Origin: an uncultured Porphyromonadaceae bacterium
GTDB taxonomy: Bacteria; Bacteroidota; Bacteroidia; Bacteroidales; Muribaculaceae
DNA: 64,000 bases
Direction: 5' to 3'
NCBI GenBank assembly: GCA_947176295.1
Contig: CAMWQB010000002.1
Coordinates: forward strand, 1 to 64,000
The notes below the pieces were generated by a model. It did not search any database. It was not told the DNA's origin and worked only from the letters and a program-made list of their open reading frames with translations. Below, piece by piece: positions 15,119 to 20,417 of this stretch (position 1 is its first letter; every line of letters starts with the position of its first letter). The position numbers and the translations under genes are program-made.

Positions 15119-15186
15119 GATTAGACCCCGTCTCCCAATATTTGTTAAGACCGGGGAACGGGGGCTAAGTATTATATGATTTAAAG

Positions 15187-15215
15187 GAGAGCATTTCCCG
15201 AGTGCTCTCTTTTCA
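15187..15215 (+). terminator. Rho-independent terminator after MCE gene
   Basis: GAGAGCA-TTTCCCGAG-TGCTCTC-TTTTC. Confidence 0.75.
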
Positions 15216-15364: not shown

Positions 15365-15372
15365 TAACTTTG
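15365..15372 (+). promoter_or_regulatory. Possible distal -7 box of TPR-HTH regulator
   Basis: TAACTTTG. Confidence 0.35.
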
Positions 15373-15457: not shown

Positions 15458-15465
15458 TATCTTTG
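15458..15465 (+). promoter_or_regulatory. -7 box of TPR-HTH regulator
   Basis: TATCTTTG 19 nt upstream of ATG at 15484. Confidence 0.55.
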
Positions 15466-15483
15466 CGATAATCTATTTCACTG

Positions 15484-17139
15484 ATGAGTATGGCTTTATC
15501 TTTCCGACTAAATTCTTTTATGGTGCTTGTGTTGCTCGGACTTTTCGGGGCGACCGGGCTTTTCTCCTGCAAAGAAAACGGCGACTACAAACGGCTGCTT
15601 CATGCCGAAGCAATTTTAGATTCTATGCCGGATTCGGCTCGGAGTTTGCTTAGTGGCATTTCCTATGATAAACTGAACAATAGGTCCAGAGCCTTATATA
15701 CATTGGTCGATGCAGAAATAAAATATAAATCATTCGTAATTTCCACAGAAGATTCCCTACTAAGAATAGCGGCAAATACATTTGATAAGCTTGGAGACAA
15801 AGATCGATTGATGCGTACTTTGTTTCAAATGTCTCTAAATGAATATTATGCGCTGGACTATGCTGAGGCAATTCTTTCTGCAACAGAGGCAATGCATCTT
15901 GCAAATGAGCTTAATTCACATTTATACATTGCCAGAACATGTGAGCAAGTGGCTACACTTTATAACAATAACTTCAATTTCGAGGATGCACTACCATACA
16001 TATTGCGCACCATAGAGGAGTATAAACTGGCTGGGAAAGAAAGGAATTTGGAATATGCGACTGTTGACAAGGCTTCTATTCTTCGCAATTTGAAACGCTA
16101 TGACGAGGCTCTCGGAGTATTAGACAGTCTGTCAAACATTATATCATCATCGAATTCCGATTCATCGCTAATCCGCTACTCTTCATACGCCAAACTCGAT
16201 TTACTCACCTTAAAGAACGATCCAAAACGAGTTCGGGCCATTGCGGATTCCATCATGCGTTTTACTGGTCCTTCCTCACACGTAGATGCCAAATATTTTA
16301 TAAGCGCAAGGGTTACTTGTGGCGACTTGGATGAAGCTAAAAGGATAATAGATTCGCTCCGTCGCCATCAACCATCATGGGACAGACAGGCTCGAATACT
16401 AAAGGGCATAATCGATTATAATATCGCTATTGGACATACAGATTCGGCCCTTGAATATTCAAACATGATGATTGATTTACAGCAAGATGGAATTTCGAGA
16501 GTTTTCAACGGAGGGTTGCAGAAGGCTCAGGTAAGTCATCTTTCAACGAAATATGCTCTGGCCCAGGAGCATAACTCCGCTATGCGAGTAGTATTTTTTT
16601 CGGTGGCTCTATCACTTATATTTATAATAGGTGTGATCGGATATGTCTTCAGGTTAAGGATGAAAAGACAAAAAGAAATTATCGATAATAAAATGGGTGA
16701 AATTTCGGAGCTTTTCAGCTCCCAAAACACCCGCTTGGCACACCTATTTTCAAATCGTGTAGAAATAATCAATGGTATATGCGAACGATACTTCACGGAA
16801 AAAGGCGTGAAAGATGTAATGCGAGCTAAATTATATAGGGAGGTATGCGGAGAATTGAAAAAGCTTAATTCTACGGAAAGCGTCGAAGAGATTGTTCGAT
16901 TTCTGAATGATACTCGAAATAATATTGTCATGAAACTCGATGAAATTCCCGGCATAAAGGATACTTCGCGGATCGTGGCAATATTTTCCATCTTAGGCTT
17001 GACACCCAAGGCCGTGTCGATATTATGTGAAATCAGTGCATCGAATGTATACACGCTGCGCTCCAGACTAAAAGATCTAATAGAAACTTCGGATTCGAAA
17101 AACAAGCGGGAACTTATCGGAGCATTAAGTCTGAAATGA
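15484..17139 (+). CDS. Membrane-anchored TPR regulator with C-terminal LuxR-like HTH (Bacteroidetes DUF6377-like)
   Basis: N-terminal signal/lipobox, TPR-like helices, single TM (VVFFSVALSLIFIIGVIGYVFRL), C-terminal LGLTPKAVSILCEISASNVYTLRSRLKDLI. Confidence 0.75.
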   Translation: MSMALSFRLNSFMVLVLLGLFGATGLFSCKENGDYKRLLHAEAILDSMPDSARSLLSGISYDKLNNRSRALYTLVDAEIKYKSFVISTEDSLLRIAANTFDKLGDKDRLMRTLFQMSLNEYYALDYAEAILSATEAMHLANELNSHLYIARTCEQVATLYNNNFNFEDALPYILRTIEEYKLAGKERNLEYATVDKASILRNLKRYDEALGVLDSLSNIISSSNSDSSLIRYSSYAKLDLLTLKNDPKRVRAIADSIMRFTGPSSHVDAKYFISARVTCGDLDEAKRIIDSLRRHQPSWDRQARILKGIIDYNIAIGHTDSALEYSNMMIDLQQDGISRVFNGGLQKAQVSHLSTKYALAQEHNSAMRVVFFSVALSLIFIIGVIGYVFRLRMKRQKEIIDNKMGEISELFSSQNTRLAHLFSNRVEIINGICERYFTEKGVKDVMRAKLYREVCGELKKLNSTESVEEIVRFLNDTRNNIVMKLDEIPGIKDTSRIVAIFSILGLTPKAVSILCEISASNVYTLRSRLKDLIETSDSKNKRELIGALSLK

Positions 17140-17147
17140 TCAATTTA

Positions 17148-17270
17148 TTCTTACATAACATCATTGTAAGAGCACAAAAGTCGATGTAAGAAACTTTTTA
17201 AAAAATACAGCTTATTATCAACACGATATTAAAACGATGTAAGAAAATGTAAGAAGCAAATTTCTTGCAA
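17148..17270 (+). repeat. Cluster of ATGTAAGAA repeats upstream of the DUF3244/C10/serpin operon
   Basis: Inverted TTCTTACAT 17148; ATTGTAAGA 17163; ATGTAAGAA 17184, 17237, 17247; near-inverted TTCTTGCAA 17262. Confidence 0.8.
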
Positions 17271-17287
17271 ATTCACTGATGTAGCAC

Positions 17288-17295
17288 TAACTTTG
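17288..17295 (+). promoter_or_regulatory. -7 box of protease/serpin operon
   Basis: TAACTTTG ~34 nt upstream of ATG 17329. Confidence 0.6.
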
Positions 17296-17328
17296 CATTA
17301 AGTAAAACCACATCAAACAACGCAGTAA

Positions 17329-17712
17329 ATGAAAAAATCTTTACTATTAATTATTGTACTTTTTTTACTTAATCCAAGCTTAATAAGTGCCGACGAACCC
17401 AAACCTACCCCTCCACCCCTCCCCCCCGGTGAAGTGGTAATTCTGCCAATAGATCCACCAGGAAAACCACGCTCGCAATGTAATCTTTATAATATCAGTG
17501 CATATATTGATTCGTCATGTCTAACAATATTTTTTGACTCGCCTGAAGGCATGGTGAATTTTACAATCATAGATGCCAATAGAGAAATCTTCCATGAAGG
17601 TATCTACACTTCATGTGAGCCAATATTCATTGACTTATCCTCGGTAGAAGCGCCTTTGGAAATACGAATTTCCACAAGCGAAGGCAATGAATACGAAGGG
17701 TGGATAGAATAA
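17329..17712 (+). CDS. Small secreted protein, DUF3244-like (possible C10 protease inhibitor/partner)
   Basis: Signal peptide, Pro-rich linker, beta-rich ~80 aa domain; directly upstream of C10 peptidase. Confidence 0.6.
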   Translation: MKKSLLLIIVLFLLNPSLISADEPKPTPPPLPPGEVVILPIDPPGKPRSQCNLYNISAYIDSSCLTIFFDSPEGMVNFTIIDANREIFHEGIYTSCEPIFIDLSSVEAPLEIRISTSEGNEYEGWIE

Positions 17713-17746
17713 AATCTTTAAACCTGAACTAATAAGAAACTACACG

Positions 17747-19021
17747 ATGAAAAAAATTTTAATCTTGTCCACTATAGGAATTCTAATGGGGGCTTGTGCT
17801 AATGATGAACCGGCACATGAGGCGTTTGATCATGAGGCTGAAAACAAAACAGGAGTAGAGGCTATTTTAATGAGCTCTGATGAAGCGATTGAAATAGCAG
17901 AAAAGAGCTATGCCAACTTCTATGGCAAACTTAGAACCCCAAAATCCAGAGACAGCTATTCAAAACCGGTTGCAATAACTCAAACTCATTCTCGTGCAAC
18001 AGAAGGGGATACTATCGCGTATATAGTGAACTTCCCGAATAATGAAGGGTATGCTATAATCCGAGCATTTAAAAATTCCATGTCACCGGTGTTAGCAGTT
18101 GTTGAAGACGGATTTCTCGGAGGAATCGACGAAATAACAGTTCCTGCTCAGAAGGAATATATCCAAACGATGCTTAGCACCAATGATATAGCTACAAATG
18201 ACGTTATTTCGCGGGGCGGATCAGCAGTAATTACACCGGTTACTGAAGAAAAATATGAAATTGACACTTTATATAGCCATAGATATGGCGTAGTCAGCGA
18301 ATTAAAGTGGGGCCAAGGAAGCGCGTTCGGAGCATATTGCGATAATGGATTATGCGGATGTTTCCCTCTCGCCACCCTATTTGTCATGGCTCATTATGAA
18401 GAAGCGGCTGAAATGAAAATAAACTTTACAAACAAAAAAGCACCTTCTGTAAACACAGTGATCCATCCCGATTGGAAGAATATCAAGAGGTACGGAAAGC
18501 CATACGATGGATATTGGAACATGCCGACACAAGAATCTATTACCAATATCGGACTTATAGCCCGACAAATAGGAGCATATGCAAAATCGGAATATAAAGG
18601 ATGGGACGGAGGCAAAGACACAACTACCTCTACCAGCGAGTCGAACGCTATAGCAGCTTTAAAGACAATATTCCCTCAAAAATCGGTAAGCGGATGGAGC
18701 AGCTACGATAAAACAGGAATAGCCGAAGGGTTGAAGTACGCACCGGTTATCATGAGTGGCCAAGGTTCTGCCGGCGGACACGCCTGGGTAGCAGAAGCTT
18801 ACGAACATTCACAGGTACAAGTAAAATATTACACAAGAGAGTACATGCATCTATTCTGGACCTTAGTTAGTACGACTTATCGAGAAGAAGAATATATGTA
18901 TTTCAACTGGGGATGGTACGGAACCGGCGATGGCTATTATAATGTAAGGTTTGCTGAATCCTTTACTCCGTCCGGGACGCATACGGAATATAAGAAATTA
19001 AAATACGTTACTATAAAATAA
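17747..19021 (+). CDS. C10-family (streptopain-like) cysteine peptidase with Spi-type propeptide, lipoprotein
   Basis: Lipobox LMGAC; propeptide AYIVNFPNNEGYAIIRA; catalytic KWGQGSAFGAYCDNGLCGCFPLATLFVMAHYE and GGHAWVAEAYE; NWGWYGTGDGYY. Confidence 0.88.
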   Translation: MKKILILSTIGILMGACANDEPAHEAFDHEAENKTGVEAILMSSDEAIEIAEKSYANFYGKLRTPKSRDSYSKPVAITQTHSRATEGDTIAYIVNFPNNEGYAIIRAFKNSMSPVLAVVEDGFLGGIDEITVPAQKEYIQTMLSTNDIATNDVISRGGSAVITPVTEEKYEIDTLYSHRYGVVSELKWGQGSAFGAYCDNGLCGCFPLATLFVMAHYEEAAEMKINFTNKKAPSVNTVIHPDWKNIKRYGKPYDGYWNMPTQESITNIGLIARQIGAYAKSEYKGWDGGKDTTTSTSESNAIAALKTIFPQKSVSGWSSYDKTGIAEGLKYAPVIMSGQGSAGGHAWVAEAYEHSQVQVKYYTREYMHLFWTLVSTTYREEEYMYFNWGWYGTGDGYYNVRFAESFTPSGTHTEYKKLKYVTIK

Positions 19022-19068
19022 ATTGCACTATTAATCCAATAAATAAATATATAAAAAGGGATAAAAGC

Positions 19069-20328
19069 ATGAGAAACATTTTAGTTGGAGCTATTGCTCT
19101 TGGGAGTATGATTTGCACTTCTTGCTCTGAAGAGGGTGGAGGCAATCAGCGGAAGGATATTCCGGTGTCGCGCACGGAGGCAGAAATCGTGGCGCTGAAC
19201 AATGAGTTTTCGCAGAAGGTTGTGTCGGCTCTCCGCTCGGGGGCCGAGGGGTTGAACGGCAATTTTGTGATGTCGCCGCTGAGCCTGTCGATGGATATGA
19301 GCATGCTTGCCGCCGGCACGGGCGGAGAATCGCAGGCTGAGATTTTGCGCGCGATGGGCTACGAGGCCGAAAATGCAGCTGAGGTGAATGCACTGAACCG
19401 GAAACTGATGTCGGAGCTTCCAAAGGCCGACAGAAAGACGACGGTATCGCTGGCGAACTGCATGTGGTATTCGCAGGCACATGGTTCGACGGTGAAGGAC
19501 AGCTATAAGGAGGTGTTGTCGACGTACTATTCGGCGCCACTTACGGGAGTTGCCGACCTTGGCGGCGAGGAAGGCCGCACGGCCATAAACAAATGGGCGA
19601 AGCAGAGCACGTCGGGGATGATTCCCGAGTTCCTGAGCGTCCCTCTCGGGGCCAATACGGTGATGGCTCTGACGAATGCCACGTACTTCAAGGGCGAATG
19701 GGCAAAGAAATTCGACAAGCAGAACACGACTAAGGAAGTGTTCCACAACGAGGACGGGACTTTTGCCCGCGTGAACATGATGAAGAACAGCGACCTGAAC
19801 ATCCAGGCCTACTACGATGGCGAGGCGGGGTATTCGCTTGCACTGCTCGACTACGGCAACAAGGCATACTGCATGGCAATAATCCTTCCTGACAAGGGCA
19901 AGAGTGCGGCCGAGATATACTCGTCGATGAACATGAGCGACCTTCAGGAATACATGATGACGCCTTCGCTACTGAAAACGCACCTCAACTTCGCGATGCC
20001 TCGCTTCGAACTCGAATCGTTCATCGGCTTCATTCCTGCGCTGAAGGCTCTGGGCGTGCACTCGATCTTCACAGAGGGTGGCGACTACTCGGGGATGTTC
20101 GCGCATGACATATCGGGCTTCTACATCGACAGGATTCTCCAGGGCACAAAGCTTGTGGTGAACGAAGAAGGCACAGAGGCAGCCTCGAGTACTGTAATAA
20201 GCAACGGCCTGACGTCGCCCGGTCCGGTTCAGACTAAGAACTTCATCGTGGACCGTCCGTTTGCCTTCGCTATCGGCGAACGCTCGACGGGAGCAATTCT
20301 TTTCAATGGAGTAATAGAACAGCTTTAG
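19069..20328 (+). CDS. Serpin-family protease inhibitor, predicted surface lipoprotein
   Basis: NATYFKGEWAKKFD, hinge VVNEEGTEAASST, C-terminal DRPFAFAIGERSTGAILFNGVI; N-terminus ...CTSCSEEGGG. Confidence 0.95.
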   Translation: MRNILVGAIALGSMICTSCSEEGGGNQRKDIPVSRTEAEIVALNNEFSQKVVSALRSGAEGLNGNFVMSPLSLSMDMSMLAAGTGGESQAEILRAMGYEAENAAEVNALNRKLMSELPKADRKTTVSLANCMWYSQAHGSTVKDSYKEVLSTYYSAPLTGVADLGGEEGRTAINKWAKQSTSGMIPEFLSVPLGANTVMALTNATYFKGEWAKKFDKQNTTKEVFHNEDGTFARVNMMKNSDLNIQAYYDGEAGYSLALLDYGNKAYCMAIILPDKGKSAAEIYSSMNMSDLQEYMMTPSLLKTHLNFAMPRFELESFIGFIPALKALGVHSIFTEGGDYSGMFAHDISGFYIDRILQGTKLVVNEEGTEAASSTVISNGLTSPGPVQTKNFIVDRPFAFAIGERSTGAILFNGVIEQL

Positions 20329-20375
20329 AGCCTATGCGATAGCAAGCTCAAAGATTGGTTAGCTATGTTTTGCCG

Positions 20376-20417
20376 GGAGAGCTCCGCCGATGAGGCCGGG
20401 GCTCTCTCTTTTGTTTT
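20376..20417 (+). terminator. Rho-independent terminator after serpin
   Basis: GGAGAGCTCCG...CCGGGGCTCTCTC then TTTTGTTTT. Confidence 0.75.

Follow-up and report, generated by a model that had tools for sequence, protein, structure and literature searches.

The C10 cysteine peptidase genes of Bacteroides are co-transcribed with small genes for exported, inhibitor-like proteins that lie a few to a few dozen base pairs away (PMC2873492, PMC3462683). One of these small genes, BT2221 (btiZ), was described as encoding a staphostatin-like inhibitor (PMC3462683) and is annotated as DUF3244 (PMC10434189). Papain-like cysteine proteases can also be inhibited by some serpins (PMC8233489). We analyzed a 64-kb window, by which we mean the whole stretch of DNA under study, from the 2.2-Mb metagenome-assembled genome (MAG) of a gut bacterium of the Muribaculaceae. 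It contains a four-gene locus encoding a membrane regulator with tetratricopeptide repeats (TPR) and a helix-turn-helix (HTH) domain, a small secreted DUF3244-like protein, a C10 peptidase and a serpin. Serpins of bacteria are generally seen as a defense against proteases of foreign origin. We regard the locus as a so far undescribed form of C10 protease-inhibitor operon, and no report of a C10-serpin operon was found in a literature search whose coverage of subscription papers was small.

All four open reading frames (ORFs) are on the forward strand and are separated, in order, by 189, 34 and 47 nt (Table 1). A previous reading of the window from its letters (the sequence-only reading) had named the same four genes at the same positions, which the ORFs and domain matches confirmed; the two short gaps, given there as 35 and 48 nt, had to be corrected. 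No terminator-like sites were found in the 34- and 47-nt gaps, and the strong terminator occurs only past the serpin gene, where the hairpin was equalled by one of 200 shuffles (z −2.7). The gap sizes and the terminator placement are consistent with co-transcription of the small gene, the C10 gene and the serpin gene. The repeated occurrence of the pair in dozens of relatives makes it probable that the serpin is part of the C10 protease operon.

Table 1. Coordinates of the genes and putative control elements of the C10-serpin locus in the window.
Feature	Position	Strand	Basis
Terminator-like hairpin, left module boundary, after upstream housekeeping genes	15183..15213	+	
TAACTTTG, second -7-type element upstream of regulator	15365-15372	+	sequence and promoter consensus
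TATCTTTG, -7-type element (TAnnTTTG), 18 nt 5' of regulator gene	15458..15465	+	sequence and promoter consensus
Membrane TPR-HTH regulator, 551 aa	15484..17139	+	weak TPR matches, hydrophobic segment, profile-level HTH
Operator-like array, five TGTAAGA copies (one reverse)	17149..17254	.	repeat counts
TAACTTTG, -7-type promoter element of the three-gene unit	17288..17295	+	sequence, comparison of loci
Secreted DUF3244-like protein, 127 aa, probable TPR-HTH partner	17329..17712	+	Pfam, profile, model, neighborhood survey
C10 cysteine peptidase, lipoprotein zymogen, 424 aa	17747..19021	+	Pfam, catalytic residues, family profile
Serpin, lipoprotein, 419 aa; hinge EEGTEAASST; predicted P4-P1' N-G-L-T/S	19069..20328	+	
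Serpin reactive-centre loop, residues 366-394	20164..20250	+	position computed from ORF
Terminator, right boundary, 3' of serpin; 14-pair stem, -27.2 kcal/mol, T-rich tail	20375..20416	+	

The recurrence of the pair was examined in 49 genomes of the genus, from which 80 regions were fetched and their genes mapped with profiles built from that set. A genus profile was used because a plain order-wide Pfam survey for C10 was swamped by long PrtT-like proteins. Relatives of the C10 peptidase, the serpin and the regulator were present in 27, 33 and 38 of these genomes, respectively. When C10 genes encoding 250 aa or more were counted, 27 of 38 had a serpin gene immediately downstream on the same strand, with gaps of 6–188 nt, and several of the remaining cases were stop-split C10 genes standing before a serpin. 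By a rough estimate based on two serpins per 2000 genes, a serpin would be expected next to a C10 gene by chance in about 0.1% of cases; chance adjacency was ruled out by the genus count together with the statistics on downstream neighbors given below. Other Muribaculaceae genera, at least four in number (g180, g185, g186 and g194), had the link as well, such that the adjacency, for which the sequence-only reading had called for a survey, is not limited to one genome. The link was rare at the 79 serpin loci examined from other Bacteroidota and their neighbors, being clear in L181 and L241. The median identity of the paired proteins was 26% for the C10 peptidases and 26% for the serpin bodies, versus 54–61% for the ordinary MlaD-like left neighbor gene in most of the same genomes. 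On account of this difference, we take the C10-serpin link to have lasted, or to have re-formed, over a long divergence.

The reading frames and domain matches of the pair held up on inspection, as did the catalytic residues. The C10 protein matched PF01640 over the entire model with 58.1 bits (cut-off 26) and the I69/Spi propeptide family with 29.3 bits (cut-off 25), in agreement with the earlier description of a C10 peptidase with a Spi-like propeptide. The propeptide covers residues 43–131 and the peptidase domain residues 188–398. The catalytic Cys205 (GCFPLAT; 18359–18361) and His345 (GGHAWV; 18779–18781) are present, as is the NWGWYGTGDGYY motif of the Trp-Gly region, and the family profile matched streptopain and interpain A. 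The enzyme is predicted to be a streptopain-family peptidase. The serpin matched PF00079 with 269 bits over profile positions 2–367 of 370, indicating a complete domain, and its best solved relative was miropin (5ncs, E 1e-52). Its hinge is of the inhibitory type, with Thr at P14, Ala at P12 and Ser at P10, and the protein is predicted to be inhibitory on this basis; some of its relatives carry bulky P12 residues and may be non-inhibitory. Direct reading of the N-termini revealed lipoprotein-type signals with acidic residues past the Cys in both the C10 peptidase (MGAC/ANDEP) and the serpin (CTSC/SEEGG). In Bacteroidetes, acidic residues after the lipoprotein Cys often direct a protein to the cell surface. 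When a simple lipobox rule was applied to the surveyed loci, lipoprotein-like sequences made up 82 of the 101 serpins and 51 of the 69 short C10 peptidases, compared with 62 of 599 other genes.

Some relatives of these two proteins differ in architecture or active site. The C10 protein of L166 (L166:4904–6277) is without the catalytic Cys (GQS) and His (GYTW), similar to BtpZ, which is without its Cys, and that of L147 (L147:324–1568) is missing the His; both are possible pseudo-peptidases kept in place. Single polypeptides of 820–870 aa with two complete serpin domains were found in MAGs of rumen Prevotella, Bacteroidaceae and Bacteroidales (L185, L208, L209, L213, L230, L234, L245, L247 and L249). 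At L155 (G037:C11), a DUF3244-like small gene is followed by a C10 gene, a gene for an outer-membrane beta-barrel protein, a second C10 gene and a serpin gene. The genome of the window itself has two paralogous cassettes; one (L096) is described below, and in the other (L092; G000:C33) the regulator is split into two ORFs and the serpin is 57% identical to that of the window.

Outside the genus, the serpin was often absent from behind short C10 genes (380–520 aa), yet a downstream neighbor was still there. A same-strand gene within 130 nt downstream was found for 61 of 65 distinct short Bacteroidales C10 genes, compared with 233 of 501 (47%) in the background (P 3e-16), and this downstream neighbor was a serpin in 33 cases and another protein in 32. 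The latter were mostly unrelated to one another; by the simple lipobox rule 22 of the 32 were lipoprotein-like, a frequency well above the background of 62 in 599 already mentioned (P 2e-15). Pfam gave no informative family for the slot proteins tried except an outer-membrane beta-barrel match in L155, and the predicted structure of a non-serpin protein from this position (L168/L167) was not used, with a predicted local distance difference test (pLDDT) score of 33. We read these results as a downstream partner slot of short C10 genes that would be filled by serpins in the Muribaculaceae lineage. Given the small inhibitor-like genes that are co-transcribed at Bacteroides C10 loci, and given that serpins are protease inhibitors by nature, the simplest reading is a guard slot taken by different inhibitor families, where the inhibitory function is what we infer.

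We propose the following model for the window locus. The TPR-HTH protein, probably with the DUF3244-like protein as its sensing partner, would bind the TGTAAGA array and switch on a single transcript, which may start near 17288 and end at the 20375 terminator. Its translation would yield the DUF3244-like protein together with a C10 pro-peptidase and a serpin, the latter two both lipid-anchored and putatively at the cell surface. The serpin, in the slot found downstream of nearly every short Bacteroidales C10 gene, would most likely be a guard: as a suicide inhibitor it would capture, at the envelope of the producing cell, C10 peptidase that is stray or was activated too early. In favor of a guard are the recurrent adjacency and the slot, the inhibitory-type hinge, the known serpins against papain-like enzymes (PMC8233489) and the overall correlation of C10 and partner serpin distances given below. 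We consider the chances about even that the locus is such an inducible surface-protease operon with the serpin as guard of the C10 peptidase. A more general model extends this to a guard slot of Bacteroidales C10 genes in which unrelated exported inhibitors have been swapped, with serpins aimed at the cell's own linked protease in Muribaculaceae and with an order-wide TPR-HTH and DUF3244 sensing pair at the head, commanding varied surface cargo; this extension is tentative and we place it somewhat short of an even chance.

The serpin could instead be aimed outward. In that case, it would shield the surface from host digestive enzymes or from the proteases of neighboring bacteria, being co-expressed with the C10 peptidase for the same situation without inhibiting it. 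A number of observations weigh against a guard function, and several of them suit an outward one. The window genome has six serpins and one intact C10 peptidase, so most of the serpins do other work, and several serpins per genome are without a C10 gene. A further locus in the same genome (L096; G000:C74) has kept the regulator, the small gene and the serpin with a 68-aa remnant of the C10 gene, and serpins also persist at L153 and L161, where C10 is absent. Streptopain-like C10 enzymes prefer a hydrophobic P2 residue; such a residue was predicted in 32% of the C10-linked and 34% of the unlinked serpins. No C10-specific signature was found when the reactive loops of linked and unlinked serpins were compared; the loops are hypervariable and their P1 residues mostly small (Ala, Ser, Thr). 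At L104 and L110 (G039:C3 and G008:C20), the C10 peptidases are 88% identical and the serpins only 42%, indicating that the partner changed while the protease stayed, with the predicted P3-P1 residues still alike (Tyr-Val-Ala and Phe-Val-Thr). Strict co-divergence of the two proteins was considered and rejected: the distances between C10 peptidases and between their partner serpins correlated significantly overall (Mantel r 0.61, P 2e-4), but the signal came mostly from close pairs and was weak (r 0.17) among pairs more than 60% divergent. Finally, the pair may be a composite, because the G+C content at third codon positions (GC3) of the serpin gene is native-like and the other three genes are AT-rich. 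The closest solved relative, miropin, acts on host proteases (PMC8233489). An outward function, however, does not account for the serpin, or some other exported protein, found immediately behind C10 genes in particular, nor for a link that persists at 26% identity. We regard it as a possible but less probable explanation than a guard.

Base composition was examined further with regard to the origin of the locus. The GC3 of the regulator, the small gene and the C10 gene is 0.31–0.39, that of the serpin gene is 0.70 and that of the surroundings is about 0.7. In the genus, the means were 0.37 for C10 genes, 0.53 for serpin genes and 0.68 for the flanks, and the C10 gene was below its own serpin gene in 26 of 27 pairs. 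We view the cassette as a mosaic in which the C10 part looks the most foreign. No empty insertion site was identifiable because the right-hand neighbors of the window locus were never present within the fetched 1.5 kb behind the conserved MlaD-like gene in the relatives examined. The AT-rich composition of three genes and the lower GC3 of C10 relative to serpin genes would be expected if mobile or fast-evolving genes had merely landed together and the order had been inherited by relatives, leaving the neighborhood without functional meaning. This is very improbable given the recurrence in several genera at very low identity, the non-random slot occupancy with its enrichment of lipoproteins, and the shared promoter and terminator boundaries.

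It may be asked whether the 127-aa protein, rather than the serpin, inhibits the C10 peptidase. Such a role was proposed for BtiZ of B. thetaiotaomicron, and the serpin would then be an accessory. The small size, the secretion and the position directly upstream of the C10 gene are shared with BtiZ (PMC3462683), and the annotation of BT2221 as DUF3244 (PMC10434189) also fits. The protein scored 23.7 bits against DUF3244, below the 25-bit cut-off, and we refer to it as DUF3244-like; its signal is type-I-like, unlike the lipoprotein-type signals of the serpin and the C10 peptidase. The structural model (pLDDT 82.8) is an immunoglobulin-like (Ig-like) beta-sandwich that matched the DUF3244 crystal structures 3d33 (E 4.5e-5), 3sd2 and 4g5a as well as a type 9 secretion C-terminal domain, and a profile search matched 3sd2 with E 0.0014. 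A staphostatin identity, which would require a lipocalin-like barrel, was rejected since the 50 best structural matches included DUF3244 proteins and no staphostatin.

The genomic neighborhood of DUF3244 genes argues against the inhibitor role as well. Our survey covered stand-alone DUF3244 genes throughout the order; 20 surrounding regions were picked by DUF3244 score regardless of C10, and 19 of them could be judged. A TPR-HTH gene was directly upstream on the same strand in 15 of these and adjacent in another orientation in 2 more, and no C10 gene was found at any of the 19 loci within the fetched region (mostly 10 kb). An inhibitor of the staphostatin or Bfi type would be expected at protease loci alone, a pattern that these genes do not show. 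Within the genus, the same-strand follower of the regulator was a DUF3244-like protein in 18 of 28 cases, including L153 and L161, where C10 is absent. Because stand-alone DUF3244 genes mostly lie behind a TPR-HTH gene without C10, we assign the 127-aa protein to the regulator, and the suggestion of the sequence-only reading that it is possibly a second inhibitor is not supported. Inhibition of the C10 peptidase by this protein is unlikely in our judgment; the secreted DUF3244-like protein is probably a sensing partner of the TPR-HTH regulator. These findings suggest that the staphostatin-like assignment of BtiZ (BT2221) deserves re-examination. In the 20 Bacteroidales regions (L339–L358), the TPR-HTH and stand-alone DUF3244 genes form an order-wide pair heading operons of varied cargo, which includes a C25-type peptidase (L358), a SPASM radical SAM protein (L342) and a cargo protein of the type 9 secretion system (L347).

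The regulator has a lipobox-like GLFSC at its N-terminus and a single hydrophobic segment at residues ~365–390 followed by basic residues, both by direct reading of the sequence; the TPRs are predicted to be periplasmic and the HTH domain C-terminal. On its own, the protein had no match to Pfam HTH families at its C-terminus. A profile of 25 members of this C-terminus, on the other hand, identified a LuxR/NarL-type HTH (FixJ 1x3u, E 4e-7; NarL, E 2e-5), and 7 of the 25 members matched GerE of Pfam. The LuxR-like HTH of the sequence-only reading is therefore upheld by the profile of relatives and not by the window protein's sequence alone.

The region between the regulator and the small gene has features of a control region. 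The 64-kb window contains just seven copies of TGTAAGA, and five of them lie here within 106 bp; 300 shuffles of the intergenic sequence never yielded five copies. A longer element, CGATGTAAGAAA...TGTAAGA, is absent from the rest of the genome. TAnnTTTG is the -7-type promoter consensus of Bacteroidetes, and an element of this type was found 25–65 nt 5' of the next gene in most comparable loci. The position of the regulator, the unique intervening repeats and the promoter element lend support to the idea, raised previously, that the membrane protein controls the operon. L102 and L109 have different repeats at the same intergenic place (ATAACGG and AGTACGG, respectively), suggesting that operators may be specific to individual regulators. 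These two loci also contain perfect inverted repeats of 23 and 27 bases built from internal direct repeats (0 of 300 shuffles). No clear repeats were found at the junction of the regulator and the small gene in many other loci.

If the guard model is true, a serpin repeatedly paired with a cysteine protease secreted by its own cell would be a cleanly testable example of serpins protecting their producer from a protease of another class. Our results further distinguish the DUF3244-type protein, which follows the membrane regulator order-wide, from the true downstream partner of C10 genes; the two had been lumped together earlier. The Bfp/Bfi and Btp/Bti systems of B. fragilis and B. thetaiotaomicron resemble the window locus in having lipoprotein C10 zymogens and close, small exported partners, and in BT2221-BT2220 a C10 gene is likewise preceded by a DUF3244 gene; co-transcription was demonstrated for those systems (PMC2873492, PMC3462683, PMC10434189). 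Their partners are proteins of 116–138 aa, whereas the window has a full-length serpin downstream and a TPR-HTH regulator heading the operon. The DUF3244 proteins 3d33, 3sd2 and 4g5a share the Ig-like fold and a similar size with the 127-aa protein; they are solved structures without an assigned function, and the window protein falls just under the Pfam cut-off. Miropin of Tannerella forsythia has Thr-Ser at the predicted reactive bond, as does the window serpin, and is a broad inhibitor of host and secreted serine proteases (PMC4404884, PMC8233489), with no C10 linkage reported there. SpeB-Spi of Streptococcus pyogenes and the staphopain-staphostatin systems each place a papain-like secreted protease beside its own inhibitor (PMC3462683), and the window C10 peptidase has an I69/Spi-like propeptide. 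Spi is a propeptide analogue and staphostatin is lipocalin-like, and both are thought to be cytoplasmic, whereas the candidate guard in the window is an exported serpin.

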